A DNA stretch of 25,829 nt from a virus. The stretch lies in the IMG/VR virus record IMGVR_UViG_3300047551_001167, positions 1 through 25,829 of that record; one strand, 5' to 3'. Of this stretch, positions 3,847-20,622 are shown one piece after another. The position numbers and the translations under genes are program-made. The notes under the pieces are model-generated. The model was given only the letters and a program-made list of their open reading frames with translations, did not search any database and was not told the DNA's origin. Numbering within the stretch: position 1 is the stretch's first letter; every line of letters begins with the position of its first letter.

Positions 3847-4641
3847 ATGCAACACGACGAAACGCTCATGCTTGCCGTGTCGGATCTGCATTGCGGATCT
3901 ACGGTCGGCCTGACTCCGCCAGACTTCCCCTTACTCGATGACGGAGCATGGAAGCTGAACAAGGTGCAGGACTGGATATGGCAACAGTGGAGCGGGTTCG
4001 TTTCGTGGGCGAAGACCTACGCCGATGATCGCCCTCTGGTGCTGCTTCTCAACGGCGACCTGATCGAGGGCGTGCATCACGGCACAAAGGAAGTCGTGCA
4101 CGCCGATCCCGGCATTCATGCTCGCATGGCGGTCGAGTGCCTGCTACCGCTTGCACGCATCGCAACACGCATCTACGTCGTGCGTGGCACGGGTGCGCAT
4201 GTCGGGCATAGCTCAGAGGATTCGATCGCTCGCACGCTCGGCGCAGTCAGCGACGGCGGAATCTTCGCCAAGCATCACTGGCTATTCCGTGTGCAGGACA
4301 CGGTAGTCAGCGCAAAGCATCACATCTCGACATCGAGCAGGCGAGCCTTGCGAGGCACAAGCCTAAGCATCAATCTCGAAGAAGAGCGGGCCGAGTGCGC
4401 TGCTGCGTCGTACCAGATGCCGGATCTGCTGATCAGATCGCATCGGCATGTCTACGGGCATTACTCAACCGAAGAGTCTCAGATCGTTGTCACGCCCGCT
4501 TGGCAGGCGCTGACAAGCTACGGCTGGAAGGTTGTGCCGAATGCCGTCCCGAGGATCGGCGGCGTGATGATTGACTGGAATCTATCGAGCGCACCAGTAG
4601 TCGTGCCGTGGACACGCACACCCGAAAGGAATCGAGTATGA
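3847..4641 (+). CDS. Calcineurin-like metallophosphoesterase
   Basis: A 264-residue member of the calcineurin-like phosphoesterase superfamily, which uses two metal ions to hydrolyse phosphodiesters or phosphomonoesters. Motifs are in order: SDLHCG (D13, H15), NGDLIEG (D71), RGTGAHVG (113-120) where the usual GNHE stands, AKHHIS (156-161) and RSHRHVYG (197-204) in place of GHxH. The GNHE-to-GTGAH change is a noticeable departure, although the histidine remains. Such enzymes occur in phage genomes with proposed roles in nucleic-acid or nucleotide metabolism; the substrate cannot be told from sequence. It follows the previous gene by one base and overlaps the winged-helix gene by 4 (ATGA). Confidence 0.85.
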   Translation: MQHDETLMLAVSDLHCGSTVGLTPPDFPLLDDGAWKLNKVQDWIWQQWSGFVSWAKTYADDRPLVLLLNGDLIEGVHHGTKEVVHADPGIHARMAVECLLPLARIATRIYVVRGTGAHVGHSSEDSIARTLGAVSDGGIFAKHHWLFRVQDTVVSAKHHISTSSRRALRGTSLSINLEEERAECAAASYQMPDLLIRSHRHVYGHYSTEESQIVVTPAWQALTSYGWKVVPNAVPRIGGVMIDWNLSSAPVVVPWTRTPERNRV

Positions 4642-5959: not shown

Positions 5960-6984
5960 GTCTTATTCTCCGATACAAGCGAGAAGAGTCGTGAACGCAT
6001 ACGCCGCGACCAAAGGGACAACGCCATTCCCACATGCTCGAAGTCTGTCCACCCTCGAGGCCATCCCATCATCCACTCTGTGAATATTGGATTGAGTCTC
6101 TGACGACTCCCAACCTGATCTCCCAGCTTGTACTTCCCCGCTGCTCCCTCTCGAATTTCCAATGTCCCGCCCTCCCCGTCGCAAGCCGCTGGAGTTTGCC
6201 AGTTTTGAGATCGATGGGGCCAATTCGGGATGTTGCTCGAGAATTCCTCGCCATGCGTCGAAGTCTTTTGGTCCTGGTGGGAAATCTGGAAGTTTACTTC
6301 CGTCGCTTCGCTCAGTTGTCCTCTCCGTTGGCCTAGTTTCGCCGATCCACAGTGATCGGTTGAGCATGGAGTCGGCCAGTTCTCGACCACATCCATGATT
6401 GTCGGATTCTTTCTTGATCCTCTCGGCTCTCCGGTTAGGACTCTCGCTTCGGCCGCCGCTGTTACGGTTGGCCACGCCGAGAATAAAGAGTCGTTCGCGT
6501 CGATGCGGCGCGCCGACTTCCTCCGCTGTAAACAATCCCGCCGAACATCTGAAACCCATTTCTTGTAGATCTCGGAGAACGTCGGAGAGTCCGAGTGTGA
6601 GATGACCTGCGACATTCTCGAAGAACACGAAGCGAGGTTCGATCTCCTTAGTGATTCGACGGATCTCAGGCCATAAGTGTCGCGAATCATCTTCACCAAG
6701 TCGCTTACCTGCGCTTGAGAACGGTTGACACGGGTAGCCGCCAACGACGAGATCCACGACTCCACGCCACGGCTTGCCGTCGAAGGTTCTAAGGTCGCTC
6801 CAGATAGGACATGGAGCCAACGCTTTCTCTTCCATGCGAGCCGCCAGGATTGCGGCCGGGAAAGCTTCGCGTTCAACGAAACATACTGCGCGAGCCGCTC
6901 CGTTTGTTGCGAGTTCAAGTCCGAGGTCAAGACCTCCGACTCCTGAGCAGATTGATAAAGTGTTGATGGTAGGTAAATCCACAT
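5956..6984 (-). CDS. Overprinted ORF across the cytosine methyltransferase
   Basis: A 342-codon frame without a stop, lying in a second frame over the whole methyltransferase gene. Its ATG (6984) stands 6 bases after AGGAG (6995-6991), better spaced than the methyltransferase's own first GTG. Its TGA forms the ATGA overlap with the next gene's ATG at 5959, the coupling used throughout this genome. The first 180 residues are Ser/Arg-rich and unremarkable. The C-terminal part has VENWPTPCSTDHCG, NWQTPAACDGEGG and LNPIFTEWMMGWPRGWTDFE. From memory these resemble the C-terminal sequences of proteins annotated as phage DNA methyltransferases. It may be a real overprinted protein or only a conserved side effect of the methyltransferase frame. 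Confidence 0.4.
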   Translation of the reverse strand: MWIYLPSTLYQSAQESEVLTSDLNSQQTERLAQYVSLNAKLSRPQSWRLAWKRKRWLHVLSGATLEPSTASRGVESWISSLAATRVNRSQAQVSDLVKMIRDTYGLRSVESLRRSNLASCSSRMSQVISHSDSPTFSEIYKKWVSDVRRDCLQRRKSARRIDANDSLFSAWPTVTAAAEARVLTGEPRGSRKNPTIMDVVENWPTPCSTDHCGSAKLGQRRGQLSEATEVNFQISHQDQKTSTHGEEFSSNIPNWPHRSQNWQTPAACDGEGGTLEIREGAAGKYKLGDQVGSRQRLNPIFTEWMMGWPRGWTDFEHVGMALSLWSRRMRSRLFSLVSENKT

Positions 6985-6988
6985 TCAC
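5963..6988 (-). CDS. DNA (cytosine-5) methyltransferase
   Basis: A 341-residue C5-cytosine methyltransferase that transfers methyl from S-adenosylmethionine to cytosine in a short DNA target. Motifs are in order: I SICSGVGGLDLGLE (12-25), IV GGYPCQPFSSAGK (83-95) with catalytic Cys87, VI FENVAG (123-128), VIII GAPHRRERLFILG (159-171), then a variable target-recognition region and motif IX-X VDRLRACGNGVVPLVAAYAF near residues 308-327. The set is complete, so it should be active. The start is GTG at 6988, overlapping the previous stop by 4 bases, or GTG at 6982, which has better spacing to AGGAG. No cognate restriction enzyme is evident, though an HNH gene is close. It probably protects phage DNA from host restriction. 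Confidence 0.92.
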   Translation of the reverse strand: MNVDLPTINTLSICSGVGGLDLGLELATNGAARAVCFVEREAFPAAILAARMEEKALAPCPIWSDLRTFDGKPWRGVVDLVVGGYPCQPFSSAGKRLGEDDSRHLWPEIRRITKEIEPRFVFFENVAGHLTLGLSDVLRDLQEMGFRCSAGLFTAEEVGAPHRRERLFILGVANRNSGGRSESPNRRAERIKKESDNHGCGRELADSMLNRSLWIGETRPTERTTERSDGSKLPDFPPGPKDFDAWRGILEQHPELAPSISKLANSSGLRRGGRDIGNSRGSSGEVQAGRSGWESSETQSNIHRVDDGMASRVDRLRACGNGVVPLVAAYAFTTLLACIGE

Positions 6989-8856: not shown

Positions 8857-9147
8857 TCAGGATCCACTAGACCACGGCGCAATGTCGCCGTGAAGCTTGG
8901 TATACAGGCGCATCGGATATAGCAGCGATGTGTGGCCTGCTTGACCACAAGCAAAGGCGATCTGCTGCAGCGTCAACGCCGGGCAGTCCATGTCGTGATG
9001 CGCTCGCATCAGCGCGAATACGTGGCCTCGCGCTACCGTCGCTCGATGCGTTCTCGGCGCTCGGAATATCTGTGCGCTGTACCCTGCACGAGCAAGCGCC
9101 GCATCTCTGATCTTCGTCACATACGATCGGGGAAGTGTGGAAATCAT
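8857..9147 (-). CDS. DnaA domain IV-like DNA-binding protein
   Basis: A 96-residue protein resembling the C-terminal DNA-binding domain (domain IV) of the replication initiator DnaA. RATVARGHVFALMRAHHDM corresponds to the R-x-x-x-x-R-x-x-A-x-x-L-x-R helix. ALTLQQIAFACGQAGHTSLLYPMR corresponds to the S-L-x-x-I-G-x-x-F-G-x-R-DHTTVL signature, with GQAGHTSLLY at residues 68-77. There is no ATPase domain. It could bind DnaA boxes to recruit or block host DnaA, or act as a regulator of the divergent early operon. I chose ATG 9147: the longer form to 9237 would overlap the plus-strand gene and its promoter. A candidate promoter ends five bases before this ATG, which again predicts a leaderless message. 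Confidence 0.65.
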   Translation of the reverse strand: MISTLPRSYVTKIRDAALARAGYSAQIFRAPRTHRATVARGHVFALMRAHHDMDCPALTLQQIAFACGQAGHTSLLYPMRLYTKLHGDIAPWSSGS

Positions 9148-9152
9148 GCGAC

Positions 9153-9181
9153 ACGATACGCCTCGACTTGACAGCGGGCAA
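9153..9181 (-). promoter_or_regulatory. Candidate divergent promoter of the DnaA-like gene
   Basis: On the minus strand TTGCCC (9181-9176), a 17-base spacer and TATCGT (9158-9153) stand five bases before the ATG at 9147. Each box matches the consensus at 4 of 6. It interleaves with the stronger rightward promoter at 9168-9196, so the two cannot easily be occupied together. Confidence 0.35.
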
Positions 9182-9196
9182 GCGGGCGGATATCTT
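9168..9196 (+). promoter_or_regulatory. Sigma70-like promoter giving a leaderless early mRNA
   Basis: A perfect TTGACA (9168-9173), exactly 17 bases, then TATCTT (9191-9196). Only six bases separate the -10 box from the ATG at 9203, so transcription should begin at or next to the A of the start codon. No purine-rich ribosome site is at a usable distance. Confidence 0.65.
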
Positions 9197-9202
9197 TCTC
9201 GC

Positions 9203-9592
9203 ATGACAAATATCAACCCGACGCTCGGCGATCTCATTCGTGCATGGAAGGCTCAGAAGTTTCTACTCGAAGAGTGCGAGGCGCAGTCGAAGTCGGCCCG
9301 CGCATTGCTCGCCGATATGGAGGCGGACATTCAATCCAAGATGAAAGATCTCGGCATTGAGAGCGCATCTGAAGATGGCGTGTCAGTCACTACAAAAACC
9401 AAGTGGCGAGCCAAGTACGAGCCCGAGCTGTGGGGCGATATCGTGAAGTGGGCGGCGAGCTCCGGACTTGACTACGTCGTACAACGCCGCCTCAATGATG
9501 CAAAGATTATGGAGCTTGTCGATAACGGCGTGCCGTTGCCGCAAGGACTCACAGTCGAAAGCTATAACGATCTCGCATTCCGTCGCTCGTAA
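9203..9592 (+). CDS. Phage early protein of unknown function (129 aa)
   Basis: First gene of the rightward replication operon. The ATG at 9203 is chosen because a strong promoter lies so close that the GTG at 9137 would precede the transcript. Residues 1-55 are a long helix (LGDLIRAWKAQKFLLEE, then ALLADMEADIQSKMKDLG); the second half has KTKWRAKYEPELWGDIVKWA, VQRRLND and PLPQGLTVESYNDLAFRR. I recall similar proteins in other phages, upstream of single-strand-binding or recombination genes, without a known function. No catalytic motif is visible. It is followed by a 65-base gap and another unknown early protein. Confidence 0.75.
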   Translation: MTNINPTLGDLIRAWKAQKFLLEECEAQSKSARALLADMEADIQSKMKDLGIESASEDGVSVTTKTKWRAKYEPELWGDIVKWAASSGLDYVVQRRLNDAKIMELVDNGVPLPQGLTVESYNDLAFRRS

Positions 9593-12082: not shown

Positions 12083-14635
12083 ATGGAAGCGGCAAGTTTC
12101 ATCAACGCAATATTCGCACCCGATGATGTGATCGAGTTTCGGATGCTGCCCGGCGCGTTCTCTCGTTGGTGCAACGCGGGCGACTTCGCTTCGATCTGGC
12201 CGAAGCTCATCGAAGACAATCGAGCGCAGAATGTCTACTTCGGGCCGAACCCGCGCATTGCATCTGGTAAGAAGACCGACGCGGATACAAAGCTCGCTCG
12301 CTGTGTGTGGGTTGACATTGATAACTTCGACGATCTCAACTTCGTGCTGCGCACGCTGAGCGAAGCAAGCCTGCCTGCGCCGTCGTTCGTGATCGCGTCG
12401 GGCGGCGGATTCCATGTCTACTGGATGTTGGACGAACCACTCGAAGATCTCGCACGCTGGACACGCATCCAGAAGGGCTTGATTCAACGGCTAAAGGCCA
12501 ACGGGCTCACGCAAGTAGACGGCGCGATACACAATCCGTCGCGCATCATGCGACTGCCGGGAACGATCAACCAGAAGCGCGATCGCAAGATGTGCGAGGT
12601 GATCGTGTCTGGCATCGGCACTTCGTACGATGTCGCCGAGTTCCCTGAAGTCTCAGGCGACACGCTTGAGCTAGCCGGCTACGCCGAGGGCACGCGCACG
12701 CTCGAAGACTTCGCGCCGAGTAGCAAGACGATCGAGTTCATCAACGGCAAGGTCAAGCCCGGCGAGCGCAACAACACACTCTTCTCGGCGGCGTGCGAGT
12801 TTGCGGCGAATGGCATCGCATGGATCGAGGCCGAGAAGATCCTCACGACGGCGGCGCTGAAGTGCGGGCTTGGACTCGATGAAGCCTCGCAAGCGATCCG
12901 AAGCGGATACAGCAAGCCGCGCACGATCAAAGTCACAGCGCCAGATGCAGGGACGATCATGGATTCAATCGCGCAGAACGTCGCGGCGACTTTCGAGAGT
13001 GCCGATCCCGAGCCTGTAAAGCCGTCAGGATCGACGGGAGAAGCCGCGCCGTGTGCAAGTCAGGCAGATCCGCAGGACGCTCCAAAGACGATCCCGCTCA
13101 TCTCGAACGGATGGAAGGGCACGATCGTCGATGAGAACGGCAAGGCAAAGACGATCAACTATGTCAGGCCGATCACGGAGATCGGCGAACATATCCTCAA
13201 GACTTGCGACGGTTGGCCGAAGGCCGTGGGCGATGCGCTATTCGTGCTCGATAAGGTCGCACACAAGCCGCGCGTGAGATACATGAACAAGACGCAGGAG
13301 CTGTTCGCGTGGCTACAGGCCAAGGCCTACACGCTCTGGATCGAGGGCGAAGGTCGAATTCGTGGAGTAGCAGGCGCAGCCGGCTGGCAGACTGCGGCGA
13401 CGAAATCCGAAATCCTCGAGCACCTGATCAAGACCGTGCCAGATCGCTACGTCGCCGTCAGCGAGCTTCCGCACGAGCCGGCTATGCCGGGAATGTTCTA
13501 TGTGCCGATCGACTTGCCGCCTGCTACTGGTCAGCATCTTGATGAGTTCGTCTCGATGTTCAACATCGCAAGCGATGATGATCGACTGCTACTCAAGGCG
13601 GCAGTATGCACTCCAGCTTGGGGCGGAGCGCCGGGAACGAGGCCCGGGTTCCTGTTCGAGGCCGACGGGCCCGGCGCAGGCAAGACGGCGACGGTATTTG
13701 CTATCGCTCGCATCTATAACGGTGCGCACTTGGTCAGTGATCCGAAGATGCCGTGGAACGAAACCCTCAAGCAGATGTTCAGCGGGCCTAGTGCGTCGGC
13801 GCGAATGCTGGTATTCGACAACGCCAAGGAAGTAGTCGAAGGGCAAGCGATCGAGGCCGCGATCACCGCGCCGACGATCTCAGGCTGGAAGGCCTACTTC
13901 GGCACGATTCAACGCCCGAACGATCTGACGGTCATGATCACCAGCAACAACGCGCAGACTTCGGCGGACATGGCGCAGCGCGTCGTCGTGATCCGAATGG
14001 GCGAACCCAAGAAGGGCATCGACTGGCAGGCCCGCATGGATGCCTTTCTCGCCGAGCATCGCCTCGACGTGTTGGCGGATGTGCTCGCGCTGCTCAAGGC
14101 CGCGCCCAAGTACAGGCCTGACCAGATCCTCGGCGACCGCTTCAGCGGGTGGCAACGGGCGATTCTCGCCAAGATCGACGGCGCTGATCGACTGAGCAGG
14201 ACGATCTTTGATCGTCGCGAGGCGGTCGATGCCGATAGCAAGCGCGGCGAAGAGATCGCACGCCTGATCTACGAGCTGGCGACGGTGCGCGTCGGGGCAT
14301 CGCGCTACTTCGATCTCCCTGCCTATACCCTCTGGCGGCGCTTGTGCGACGTGGGGTACTGGACGAACGAACGCCGCCTCGAAGTCGATGCCAAGTCGAT
14401 CGCCGACTGCTCGAAGTGGGCACAACGCAAGGTGGCCCGATGGTCTGGCTTGTTGACTGCTGTCAAGACTGAATCGGGCGAAGTGCGTCGCGTCATGACT
14501 CCGCGAGAGTCAGGCGGCGACGGCGCGGCGGTCAAGTCGGCGGTGCTGCGGTTCGATCTCAGCGTCTTCGAGCGCCACTTCAAGCCCGAAGAGATGCCGG
14601 TCACTGACCGATACGGGAACGAGATCCCGATCTAG
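12083..14635 (+). CDS. Primase-helicase: archaeo-eukaryotic primase plus P-loop ATPase
   Basis: An 850-residue fusion. The N-terminal domain (about 1-200) is an archaeo-eukaryotic-type primase: CVWVDIDNFDD with metal ligands D78 and D80, SGGGFHVYW with H111, a further acidic D146, and RIMRLPGTIN (154-163). Residues 200-480 include linker and D5-like helical parts. The C-terminal domain (about 500-720) is a P-loop ATPase with GPGAGKT (529-535) and Walker B MLVFDN (D579), then TVMITSNN as sensor. It resembles the helicase part of D5/phage primase-helicases. One chain would therefore prime and unwind. No DnaB-type helicase is present, so this is the likely replicative enzyme. A strong terminator and the candidate origin follow it directly. 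Confidence 0.88.
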   Translation: MEAASFINAIFAPDDVIEFRMLPGAFSRWCNAGDFASIWPKLIEDNRAQNVYFGPNPRIASGKKTDADTKLARCVWVDIDNFDDLNFVLRTLSEASLPAPSFVIASGGGFHVYWMLDEPLEDLARWTRIQKGLIQRLKANGLTQVDGAIHNPSRIMRLPGTINQKRDRKMCEVIVSGIGTSYDVAEFPEVSGDTLELAGYAEGTRTLEDFAPSSKTIEFINGKVKPGERNNTLFSAACEFAANGIAWIEAEKILTTAALKCGLGLDEASQAIRSGYSKPRTIKVTAPDAGTIMDSIAQNVAATFESADPEPVKPSGSTGEAAPCASQADPQDAPKTIPLISNGWKGTIVDENGKAKTINYVRPITEIGEHILKTCDGWPKAVGDALFVLDKVAHKPRVRYMNKTQELFAWLQAKAYTLWIEGEGRIRGVAGAAGWQTAATKSEILEHLIKTVPDRYVAVSELPHEPAMPGMFYVPIDLPPATGQHLDEFVSMFNIASDDDRLLLKAAVCTPAWGGAPGTRPGFLFEADGPGAGKTATVFAIARIYNGAHLVSDPKMPWNETLKQMFSGPSASARMLVFDNAKEVVEGQAIEAAITAPTISGWKAYFGTIQRPNDLTVMITSNNAQTSADMAQRVVVIRMGEPKKGIDWQARMDAFLAEHRLDVLADVLALLKAAPKYRPDQILGDRFSGWQRAILAKIDGADRLSRTIFDRREAVDADSKRGEEIARLIYELATVRVGASRYFDLPAYTLWRRLCDVGYWTNERRLEVDAKSIADCSKWAQRKVARWSGLLTAVKTESGEVRRVMTPRESGGDGAAVKSAVLRFDLSVFERHFKPEEMPVTDRYGNEIPI

Positions 14636-14683: not shown

Positions 14684-14721
14684 GCACGCAGCGTCGGGTA
14701 TCCGGCGCTGTGTGCGTTTTT
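14684..14721 (+). terminator. Strong Rho-independent terminator of the replication operon
   Basis: A 14-bp stem (14684-14697 with 14702-14715; two G-U pairs) with a GTAT loop, followed by GTTTTT. It ends transcription from the primase-helicase before the candidate origin. Confidence 0.85.
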
Positions 14722-14751
14722 GCGCTGAAATCGAGGGTAGATGGTATCCGT

Positions 14752-14858
14752 GGACGGCTGGGACGGCTGAGACGGTACCTGCAAACTCTCTATACCTACT
14801 CTATTTATCTTTTACCCTACAGGGTTTTAGACTACTGTCTCAGCCGTCCCAGCCGTCC
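14752..14858. repeat. Perfect 22-bp inverted repeats around an AT-rich core: candidate replication origin
   Basis: Arms at 14752-14773 and 14837-14858 are exact reverse complements. Each arm is built from tandem copies of GGACGGCTG (two full copies, then AGAC, the start of a third). The 63-bp spacer is about 38% GC by hand count, much lower than its surroundings. It contains pyrimidine-rich TATTTATCTTTT and a small inverted repeat ACCCT/AGGGT. Iteron-like arms next to an AT-rich stretch, right after the replication genes, fit an origin with a DNA-unwinding element. Alternatives are a very long hairpin acting on RNA, or a recombination site. No real ORF lies in 14722-14972. Confidence 0.5.
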
Positions 14859-14902
14859 ATAGGAAGAATAAGCGGTTATCGGACTCTCACACCTATGGGC
14901 TG

Positions 14903-14911
14903 TTTTCCACA
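14903..14911 (+). promoter_or_regulatory. DnaA box (TTTTCCACA)
   Basis: Matches the bacterial DnaA-box consensus TTWTNCACA at every position. It lies 45 bp to the right of the inverted repeat, and the phage encodes a DnaA-domain-IV-like protein at 8857-9147. A single nine-base match can arise by chance, so its weight comes from the surroundings. Confidence 0.45.
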
Positions 14912-14937
14912 CTGGAAATATTCTGATTCGACTGGAC

Positions 14938-14966
14938 TTGACAAGGCAGGAGCGCCGATATATGCT
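14938..14966 (+). promoter_or_regulatory. Sigma70-like promoter, leaderless geometry
   Basis: Perfect TTGACA (14938-14943), a 17-base spacer, then TATGCT (14961-14966). The next ATG (14973) is six bases after the -10 box, the same distance as at the 9203 promoter. It drives the small-gene operon 14973-16195. Confidence 0.65.
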
Positions 14967-17103: not shown

Positions 17104-17390
17104 ATGAGCAAAGTCTCACTGAGATGCTGATCGAAGTGCGTGACAGCGTGCGTGAGATCAAGCACAACCAAGAGATGATGCAGCAATCGCATCAGCAGAC
17201 TCACTCGGAAGTAGTGCGCTTGCGTCGTATCATCACTGGTGAAAGCGAGCCGGAACGCGGCCTCGTGCTTCGCGTGGATCGCTTGGAACAGCGGCAGGAA
17301 CGCTCATCGTTCCTTTCGCAAACTGCGATAGGTGCGGCGCTTACCGCAATCGTCGGCGCGATGATGGCGGCGCTTGGGTTCAGGCAGTAG
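17100..17390 (+). CDS. Holin-like (XhlA-type) small membrane protein
   Basis: A 96-residue protein with an N-terminal helical coiled coil (MNEQSLTEMLIEVRDSVREI), a heptad segment GLVLRVDRLEQRQERSS, and one C-terminal membrane helix (TAIGAALTAIVGAMMAALGF) ending in RQ. A charged coiled coil followed by one terminal transmembrane helix is the layout of XhlA/hemolysin-like holin partners. It would collect in the inner membrane and let the lysis proteins act. It is coupled by ATGA to the lipoprotein gene. The lysozyme of this phage has its own signal peptide, so the protein may trigger lysis by depolarisation rather than carry enzyme out. Confidence 0.6.
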   Translation: MNEQSLTEMLIEVRDSVREIKHNQEMMQQSHQQTHSEVVRLRRIITGESEPERGLVLRVDRLEQRQERSSFLSQTAIGAALTAIVGAMMAALGFRQ

Positions 17391-17418
17391 GGGCTTGGGG
17401 GTCAGGTACTACGAAAGG

Positions 17419-18621
17419 ATGAAGGAAGTGAAGGAACAACACGCACTGCATTACATCGCCGAGAGCCTGCGGCCTCTCGCGATCGAGATCTCGAAACTGA
17501 TACCAGATCAGGCGAACGCGCGAAAGCACAACGAGAAAAACATGGATGCGATCGTTGCAAGCCTCTCGCGGTTTGGGCAACGATCGCCGATCGTCGTGCA
17601 ACGGCAAGGCATGATCGTTCGGGCAGGCAACGGAAGACTCGAAGCGGCGAAGCGTCTTTCATGGTCGCACATCGCGGCGGTCATCGTCGATGAAAGCAGT
17701 GTCGATGCTACGGCGTTTGCGATTGCCGACAATCGCACGGCTGAACTTGCCGAATGGGATGACAGCGTACTCGCTGGCCTTCTCGATTCACTTGATCCCG
17801 AAGACCTCAAGGTCACTGGCTTCAGTGAGAAGGATCTTGAACTCATCTTGAACGATCAGATGCCGGAGCCTGTGCAGGATGAAGTGCCGGAGCCGCCTGC
17901 CGATCCGATCACAAAGCCCGGCGATCTGTGGTTGCTCGGCGATCATCGACTGCTGTGCGGCGACTCGACGAAGGCGGAAGATGTCGCGCGGCTGATGGAT
18001 GGTGAAAATCCAAGGCTTATGGTAACCGATCCCCCATATGGCGTTGCATACGAAGGTGGTCAAGTCAACACTAAGAAGCGTGAGAAGTTACAGAGTGACG
18101 ATATGCCTGATGTGTTTGCGCCAGCGCTAGCCTGCGCAAAAACCATCATGCCACAAGGTGCTTGGTATATCTGGCATGCAGGAAAGTACGCCGAGCCGGT
18201 CTATGCTGCAATCAGGCAATGCGGATATGAAACACGATCTCTGATCGTATGGCACAAGCTGAAAGCACATTATGGCGCACCAAGCGCTCACTACTGTCAG
18301 AAGCATGAGCCATGCTTGTATGCCGTGAATGGATCTGCTGGATTCATAGGGCCTTCGAATGAGGTGACGGTATGGGAAATCGAGCAACCCAGTCGGAATG
18401 AGTTTCATCCGACACAGAAGCCAATCGAGTGCATGGCCAGAGCGATTAGAAATCACGATGCTACCGTGATATATGATCCATTCTTAGGATCTGGCACAAC
18501 TCTCGTGGCCGCTGAGCAACTAGGTCGCAAGTGCTATGGCATTGAGATCAGCCCGCAGTACTGCGATGTTATCGTCAAGCGATGGGAGATACTAACAGGC
18601 AAGAAGGCAACGCTCGCATGA
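17419..18621 (+). CDS. ParB-domain / DNA N-methyltransferase fusion
   Basis: A 400-residue protein. Residues 25-140 are a ParB/Srx-like nuclease-fold domain (NARKHNEKNMDAIVASLSRFG, then IVRAGNGRLEAAKRL). Residues 165-400 are a DNA methyltransferase with VTDPPYGV (DPPY at 204-207) ahead of DPFLGSGTTLVA (353-364), the motif order of the beta class. DPPY points to N6-adenine or N4-cytosine methylation. Such fusions are common in phages and prophages. Region 18000-18560, containing target recognition, is AT-richer and poorer in GATC than the N-terminal part, which fits exchange of the recognition segment. The start is uncertain: ATG 17419 is too close to AAAGG, while GTG 17428 is better spaced. 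Confidence 0.87.
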   Translation: MKEVKEQHALHYIAESLRPLAIEISKLIPDQANARKHNEKNMDAIVASLSRFGQRSPIVVQRQGMIVRAGNGRLEAAKRLSWSHIAAVIVDESSVDATAFAIADNRTAELAEWDDSVLAGLLDSLDPEDLKVTGFSEKDLELILNDQMPEPVQDEVPEPPADPITKPGDLWLLGDHRLLCGDSTKAEDVARLMDGENPRLMVTDPPYGVAYEGGQVNTKKREKLQSDDMPDVFAPALACAKTIMPQGAWYIWHAGKYAEPVYAAIRQCGYETRSLIVWHKLKAHYGAPSAHYCQKHEPCLYAVNGSAGFIGPSNEVTVWEIEQPSRNEFHPTQKPIECMARAIRNHDATVIYDPFLGSGTTLVAAEQLGRKCYGIEISPQYCDVIVKRWEILTGKKATLA

Positions 18622-19331: not shown

Positions 19332-20622
19332 GGCTACCGAGTTTGAACCGATCGGCGCGCATCGTGCGCTGTGGAGTGCGCGTGATCCGCGCGTCCTGGT
19401 CGAGGGCCCGGCTGGCACGGGCAAGACTCGCAACGAACTGGAGCGCATCAACGCGCTCGCGTTCAAGTACCCGAACTCGCGGCATCTCATCTGCCGAAAG
19501 ACTCGAGCAAGTATGAGCGAGTCGGTACTGGTGACATGGGAGCGCGACGTACACGCCGAAACGATGCACCTCTTCGGCACAGTGCGCAGGGCGAACCGCG
19601 AGGCGTACCAGTACCCAAACGGCTCGATCGTTGTAGTCGGCGGACTCGACAAGCCAGAGCGAACGTACTCGGCGGAGTATGACACGATCCACGTCTTTGA
19701 GTCGATCGAGACAACGGAGGACGAAGTTCAACAACTCCTGCGCGCCTTGCGCTCTGGCAAGATGCCGTATCAGCAACTCGTGTGCGACACGAATCCGGGA
19801 AGCGAGCGGCACTGGTTGAACATGCGCGCCAATGCTGGCTGGTTCAGGCGCATCGTCACGCGGCTCGAAGACAATCCGCGCTTCTGGGCCGGCAATGACT
19901 GGACGCATGATGGGCGGCAGTTCCTATCGAGTCTTGAGGCGCTAACTGGGCATCGGCGTCTGAGACTATTCGAGGGCAAGTGGTGTAGCACCGAAGGACT
20001 CGTCTATGACGACTTCGACGCCGCTACCCATATCATCGACTCGATGCCGGACGGCTGGCAGAACTGGCGCAAGTTCAGAGCGATCGACTTCGGCTTCGTC
20101 GATCCGTTCGTTTGCCAGTGGTGGGCAGACAGCGGCGAGGCGCTGTATCTGTATCGTGAGCTGTACATGTCAGGCCGCATCGTCGAGGATCACGCACGCC
20201 AGATCCTCGACCTATCACGAGGCGAGGACTATGTGGCGACAGTGAGCGACCATGCCCGAGAGGATCGAGAGACGCTGCACCGCTACGGCGTGTTCACAAG
20301 TCCGGCTGAGAAGGACATCGACCGAGGCTGCGATCTAGTACGCTCACGGCTACGGATTCAACCGAACGGCAAGCCGAAGCTCTACATCTTGTCGCAGGCG
20401 CTCGCCGAATCGGATCGCAGGCTTGCGGCATCGAAGCGACCGACATCAACCCGTGAAGAGTTCGACGCTTACATCTGGGAGTCGAGGCGAGACGGGCAGG
20501 CGAAAGAGCGACCGCTTGACCGAGACAACCATGGTATGGACGCCATGCGGTACGCTGTATGCGCCGCCGAAGGCATCGGCATCTCGCAACCGTATCTCGG
20601 AGTCATTGACACATGGGACTGA
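19321..20622 (+). CDS. terL: Large terminase subunit
   Basis: A 433-residue packaging motor: an ATPase that pumps DNA into the prohead plus a nuclease that cuts the concatemer. Walker A is GPAGTGKT (29-36). The Walker B region is YDTIHVFESIE (120-130), where F replaces the usual Asp and E127 or E130 would be catalytic. Motif III/coupling is LVCDTNPG (153-160). The RNase H-like nuclease shows RAIDFGFVDPF (D256), VSDHARED (D310) and RDNHGMDAMRYAV near 403-415. The order is complete, so the protein should be functional. It lies immediately before the portal gene, overlapping it by 10 bases. Confidence 0.92.
   Translation: MTSKATEFEPIGAHRALWSARDPRVLVEGPAGTGKTRNELERINALAFKYPNSRHLICRKTRASMSESVLVTWERDVHAETMHLFGTVRRANREAYQYPNGSIVVVGGLDKPERTYSAEYDTIHVFESIETTEDEVQQLLRALRSGKMPYQQLVCDTNPGSERHWLNMRANAGWFRRIVTRLEDNPRFWAGNDWTHDGRQFLSSLEALTGHRRLRLFEGKWCSTEGLVYDDFDAATHIIDSMPDGWQNWRKFRAIDFGFVDPFVCQWWADSGEALYLYRELYMSGRIVEDHARQILDLSRGEDYVATVSDHAREDRETLHRYGVFTSPAEKDIDRGCDLVRSRLRIQPNGKPKLYILSQALAESDRRLAASKRPTSTREEFDAYIWESRRDGQAKERPLDRDNHGMDAMRYAVCAAEGIGISQPYLGVIDTWD

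Follow-up and report, generated by a model that had tools for sequence, protein, structure and literature searches.

A conserved inverted repeat of 9-bp units behind a phage primase-helicase gene as a probable replication origin

The window analysed here, a stretch of 25,829 nucleotides from a viral record, carries an inverted repeat at positions 14751-14859, shortly behind a primase-helicase gene. By comparison with studied systems we consider this element likely to be the cis-acting replication origin of the phage, or its equivalent of the P4 crr, bound by the phage's own primase-helicase. In other words, it is very probably the docking site of the phage replication protein for copying of the genome. 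This reading is supported by the conservation of the element, by its recurrence behind unrelated primase-helicases and by the studied elements of P4 (crr), pRN1, PICI and SaPI/SCCmec. We describe its anatomy, its placement, its conservation and the recurrence of its grammar behind other primase-helicase genes. The element provides a concrete origin candidate for an uncultivated phage lineage.

Results

The left arm (14751-14777, +) and the right arm (14833-14859, -) comprise 27 bp each with one mismatch. Exact identity extends over the outer 23 bp, TGGACGGCTGGGACGGCTGAGAC, at 14751-14773 and 14837-14859. An earlier note on this DNA had given exact arms of 22 bp; the exact repeat of units is real, while the length has to be corrected by one base pair. 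Both arms are built of the unit GGACGGCTG with a period of 9 bp; each arm has two exact copies and a degenerate one. Exact copies are at 14752-14760 and 14761-14769 on the + strand, followed by a degenerate third unit AGACGG, and at 14850-14858 and 14841-14849 on the - strand with the degenerate third unit inside. Opposed sets of 9-bp tandem units are thus present, with four exact units over both arms. The arms enclose an AT-rich core at 14778-14832, the presumed melting region. Between the exact 23-bp arms (14774-14836) it measures 63 bases with an AT content of 61.9% vs 42.3% across the window, in agreement with the 63 AT-rich bases noted before. In a scoring of inverted repeats that allowed 25-130 bases in the loop, the element reached 24 and the runner-up in the window 10, which makes it by far the strongest of the window. 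The top scores in 40 dinucleotide shuffles of the window were 10-14.

The gap between the stop codon of the primase-helicase gene and the element is 115 bp and contains the intrinsic terminator of the gene at 14684-14715 (+). With the arm starting at 14751, the site does lie right after this terminator, as had been proposed. The right border is the promoter of the next operon, TTGACA-17-TATGCT at 14938-14966 (+). Because of the terminator upstream and the promoter downstream the element is probably situated in a little-transcribed gap. It occurs once in the record, and no second cluster of GGACGGCTG units was found in these 25.8 kb, which may be an incomplete record. The primase-helicase gene itself contains none of the units, and one more exact copy is located far off at 20049. 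We rejected a phage origin of the lambda type, i.e. iterons within the initiator gene, since all four units are outside the gene. No Rep endonuclease of the rolling-circle type was found among the Pfam-annotated genes in a scan covering part of the ORFs. A blastn search with the whole element against phages gave no match. Its outer ends lack GGGAC, and inverted-repeat patterns demanding GGGAC at this place missed the window.

Two further viral contigs encode the primase-helicase, with 98% and 81% protein identity. Both have the element in the same position together with the terminator and the -35 box of the promoter. Hence the finding named beforehand as refuting an origin, absence of the repeat from close relatives, was not seen. 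In L019 and L020 the terminator is kept with altered stem bases, and TTGACA is kept as well. The arms have drifted in L020, the relative with 81% identity; there the units retain GGACRGC and other positions change. Some mismatches across its stem are uncompensated, while the unit cores persist. Within the right half of the core 24 bases, TTACCCTACAGGGTTTTAGACTAC at 14812-14835, are unchanged in the alignment of all three relatives. To the right of the repeat, TTATCGGACTC at 14876-14886 is also invariant across all three.

The presumed initiator is the product of the primase-helicase gene at 12083-14635 (+), a protein of 850 aa with an AEP/PrimPol-like N-terminal part, PriCT_1 and a P-loop ATPase as C-terminal part. 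The N-terminal part matches PHROG DNA primase families, PriCT_1 and the PrimPol AEP domain of PDB 6zp9 (E 3e-7). The C-terminal part, which contains the P-loop GPGAGKT (residues 529-535), matches phrog_10537, a family whose function is not known. The D5_N and DUF5906 models did not match the ATPase part, and against D5-type proteins a profile comparison aligned the P-loops in a weak match (E 0.036, probability 1.4%). Therefore, a relationship to P4 alpha and pRN1 is based on layout and motifs. An AlphaFold model from three sequences had a mean pLDDT of 34, from which we draw no claim on the fold. Elsewhere in the window, a gene at 17374-18621 (+) combines an N6/N4 DNA methylase domain with a ParB_N-like domain, and a C-5 cytosine methylase gene is located at 5963-6988 (-).

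To see whether the layout recurs, viral contigs were scanned, irrespective of genes, with a DNA pattern of opposed units of the GGAC type. It matched unrelated phage contigs, six of which (L025, L026, L028, L030, L031 and L032) carry the match at the 3' end of a primase-helicase gene of the D5_N/DUF5906 or the phrog_21086/DNA-primase type. Because this pattern presets the 9-bp spacing, the test was reversed and run gene-first. DUF5906 genes from genomes of Gammaproteobacteria, Alphaproteobacteria and Planctomycetota were chosen regardless of repeats, and the best inverted repeat at most 500 bp from each stop codon was evaluated. Excluding the loci of genomes first found by their repeats left 82 flanks (full set: 89 flanks, 30 positive). 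Both arms consisted of 9-bp tandem units in 28 of the 82 3' flanks, which fall into 20 of the 64 clusters formed at 50% protein identity; the other 54 flanks failed the 9-bp test. Other periods were 10 bp in three flanks and 8 bp in two. The positive inverted repeats are no more than about 200 bp away from the stop codon, at a median distance of 37 bases, and their median core is 63 bases long. Controls on the full 89-flank set were positive in 0/445 shuffles, 0/29 5' flanks and 1/252 windows within these genes. The unit sequences vary widely among the positives (TGTGACGCT, TATCCAACC, TGGAACGGT and others). Thus what is shared is a grammar, not a sequence.

In Bacillota and Actinomycetota the signal was weaker: period 9 was found in 6/57 flanks vs 0/570 shuffles, other periods were mostly 8 or 10, and a few windows within genes were positive, too. 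Among the sampled phages, those nearest with a related primase part (Pam3, RHph_TM26 and L111-L116) failed the 9-bp test. Among relatives of phrog_10537 only Mesorhizobium L229, which is identical to L058 and was first found by its repeat, shows the layout. Two other phrog_10537 relatives, L227 and L228, carry 9-bp units within the coding 3' end together with an inverted repeat of 12 bases, which may be an origin that overlaps the gene. In MinM1 the repeats are visible by eye but escaped the automatic detector, which also assigned a period of 5 to pRN2, where GGAC motifs are spaced by 9 on inspection.

Two further observations were made in these data. Purine-pyrimidine alternation of at least 12 bases is found in the cores of half of the 28 positives vs 1.4% of control segments. 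Alternating tracts of the CGCGCG type occur e.g. in L179, L181, L184, L186 and L187 and also in L118 (AcaML1); they may be related to melting or to Z-DNA. Inverted repeats of the GGACAGN-GGGAC type are dispersed on the chromosomes of Thermoanaerobaculum MAG JAJKHS, Coriobacteriaceae RUG13402 and Micrococcales WRET01 (L038-L108), with up to about twenty per MAG and family-specific cores such as GTAGCACTTTGTCC. These look like repeated hairpin elements and not like phage origins. The matches of the broad genome pattern to such hairpins, numerous and scattered over the chromosomes of a few MAGs, were left out of the evidence.

Discussion

Judging from studied relatives, the most likely mode of action is as follows. 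The primase-helicase encoded just upstream would bind the 9-bp units, probably via its C-terminal part. Its helicase part would assemble as two oligomers, one on each of the opposed arms, and these would melt the AT-rich core between them. The primase part would then lay the first primers, giving rise to two outgoing forks.

The element could instead act by secondary structure. In this view, which follows a proposal made for pRN1, it would be extruded to form a large hairpin or cruciform and be recognised in this shape by the replication protein, and the sequence of the units would matter little. We regard this as possible, though rather unlikely. The 27-bp stem far exceeds shuffles in folding (z -11.4), and stem mutants of pRN1 were rescued when symmetry was regained (PMC4234260). 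Stem symmetry is retained despite differing units in pRN1 and in L204 from Planctomycetota. L204, behind a DUF5906 gene, has 44-base arms with a score of 32, differing units and a nearly perfect stem, and is a good case for the stem-symmetry model. In a test that required exact cores and applied no selection for spacer symmetry, on a set that includes pattern-selected loci, spacer bases matched their stem partner in 206/272 cases, a non-partner in 181/272 and the neighbouring unit in 183, a modest excess for symmetry over and above unit identity. On the other hand, the stem mismatches of the 81% relative are left uncompensated where its unit cores are kept. Moreover, a hairpin needs no 9-bp tandem period in both arms, and binding of SCCmec Cch2 requires direct, not inverted, repeats (PMC7581432). 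That the element is an accessory cis element like the P4 crr, or a site for copy-number control or autoregulation of the primase-helicase, with forks starting elsewhere, appears unlikely to us. P4 has iteron sets at crr beside alpha and at a distant annotated origin. Because the P4 origin is separate from crr, the phage element, too, could be an accessory site. Yet a second iteron cluster is missing from the possibly incomplete record, and pRN1 and PICI need no more than such an element plus their replication genes (PMC4234260, PMC6092414).

Replication from a DnaA-dependent origin is highly improbable. It would employ a box at 14903 and a DnaA-like protein of the phage, both of which the earlier note had proposed. 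The candidate box TTTTCCACA (14903-14911), 44 bp right of the repeat, had been taken for a consensus box; it matches TTATCCACA in 8 of 9 positions. The window contains three such 8-of-9 boxes where 2.2 are expected, which is chance level, and the box is absent from L020. With this single, non-conserved box in place of a box cluster we rejected a DnaA-type oriC. The gene at 8857-9237 (-), which we take to be the intended DnaA-like gene, was without a Pfam hit up to E 10, and BLASTP did not match its product to the DnaA-like proteins of two phages; the assignment found no support. Of the proposed replication system of the phage's own, the origin beside the primase-helicase is upheld by conservation, recurrence and studied relatives, while the DnaA part is not. 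GC skew, which had been suggested as a check, turns at about 9 kb, where the genes switch strand, and not at the element. Since skew follows gene direction in the window, it speaks neither for nor against an origin. Finally, the inverted ends and the intergenic position would also suit a non-replicative element such as a terminator or attenuator, a structured RNA or a miniature transposable element. This is very unlikely, because the terminator hairpin upstream is distinct from the element, the next promoter lies downstream of it, an Rfam search gave no family at the gathering score, and the element is present as a single copy in the record and retains its position and both flanks in relatives. 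In addition, the same placement is seen behind unrelated primases with different unit sequences. We favor the view that the element is a replication origin bound by the primase-helicase.

The 9-bp rule across the group is a more interesting result than the single element and calls for a larger, phylogenetically corrected test. It states that in many primase-helicase replicons, ranging from plasmids of archaea to phages and satellites of bacteria, the origin is defined by opposed arrays of 9-bp units around a core of 35-130 bp (median 63), directly behind the gene. We consider the chances of this generalisation to be evenly balanced. If true, it would unify the 'stem-loop' origins (pRN1) with the 'iteron' origins (P4, SaPI) and would cover initiators outside the D5 family like that of the phage studied here. 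Origins would then be readable directly from sequence. As it stands, a simple sequence rule finds candidate origins behind about one third of the sampled DUF5906 genes of Proteobacteria and Planctomycetota. A prior description of the 9-bp rule for such origins was not found in the open-access papers that were searched.

Among the studied elements, that of the Sulfolobus plasmid pRN1 is a 100-bp stem-loop 3' of orf904, which is needed for replication and functional when relocated (PMC4234260). The authors contrasted it with the P4 iterons and described it as lacking iterons (PMC4234260). In our analysis, the pRN1 arms are each made of two 9-bp units, TGTCCATAG TGTCCAACT, which suggests that this stem-loop origin and the P4 crr are built of 9-bp units of one kind. 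Like the phage element it follows a terminator hairpin behind a PrimPol-helicase gene, with 21-bp arms and a 58-base loop. It differs in its unit sequences and its archaeal host, and ORF904 has a recognisable D5_N/DUF5906 helicase next to the Prim-Pol domain, whereas the phage protein has no D5_N/DUF5906 match.

The P4 crr is annotated beside the alpha gene, behind the alpha terminator, and thus adjoins an initiator gene in the same manner. Its type I repeats, located at 4314 and 4323 in one orientation and at 4366 and 4384 in the opposite one, form opposed iteron sets with spacings of 9 and 18 bp. Unlike the phage element, crr consists of two 120-bp copies, the P4 record has a second iteron set at the annotated origin distant from crr, and alpha carries a TOPRIM primase.

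PICI origins, located after the replication gene, have an AT-rich region flanked by two iteron sets, and rep plus ori maintain a plasmid (PMC6092414); SaPI origins are directly downstream of rep (PMC7581432). Both share with the phage element the two iteron sets and the AT-rich region 3' of the initiator gene (PMC6092414, PMC7581432), a likeness drawn from the published description, while iteron sequences and initiators differ. The C-terminal domains of SaPI Rep and SCCmec Cch2 bind repeats just 3' of their own genes (PMC7581432). The putative SCCmec cch2 origin resembles the phage element by repeats directly 3' of a D5-type initiator gene. It is distinguished by three direct 5-nt repeats in 23 bp, and Cch2 binding was intact without the inverted repeats and abolished without the direct ones (PMC7581432).

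For phage BIP-1 the pRN1 authors proposed the same type of origin and reported a large stem-loop in the region (PMC4234260). We found a 9-bp element with arms of TTTGCCTCG units near the primase gene of BPP-1, possibly but not necessarily the stem-loop shown in Figure 6 of PMC4234260. The putative origin of these Bordetella phages, BPP-1/BIP-1, is likewise an inverted repeat 3' of a PrimPol-D5 gene in a phage; in contrast to the element described here, a small gene separates the primase gene from the 9-bp element and the initiator is from another family. By its layout the element of the window would belong to a known class, the inverted-iteron origins 3' of primase-helicase genes.
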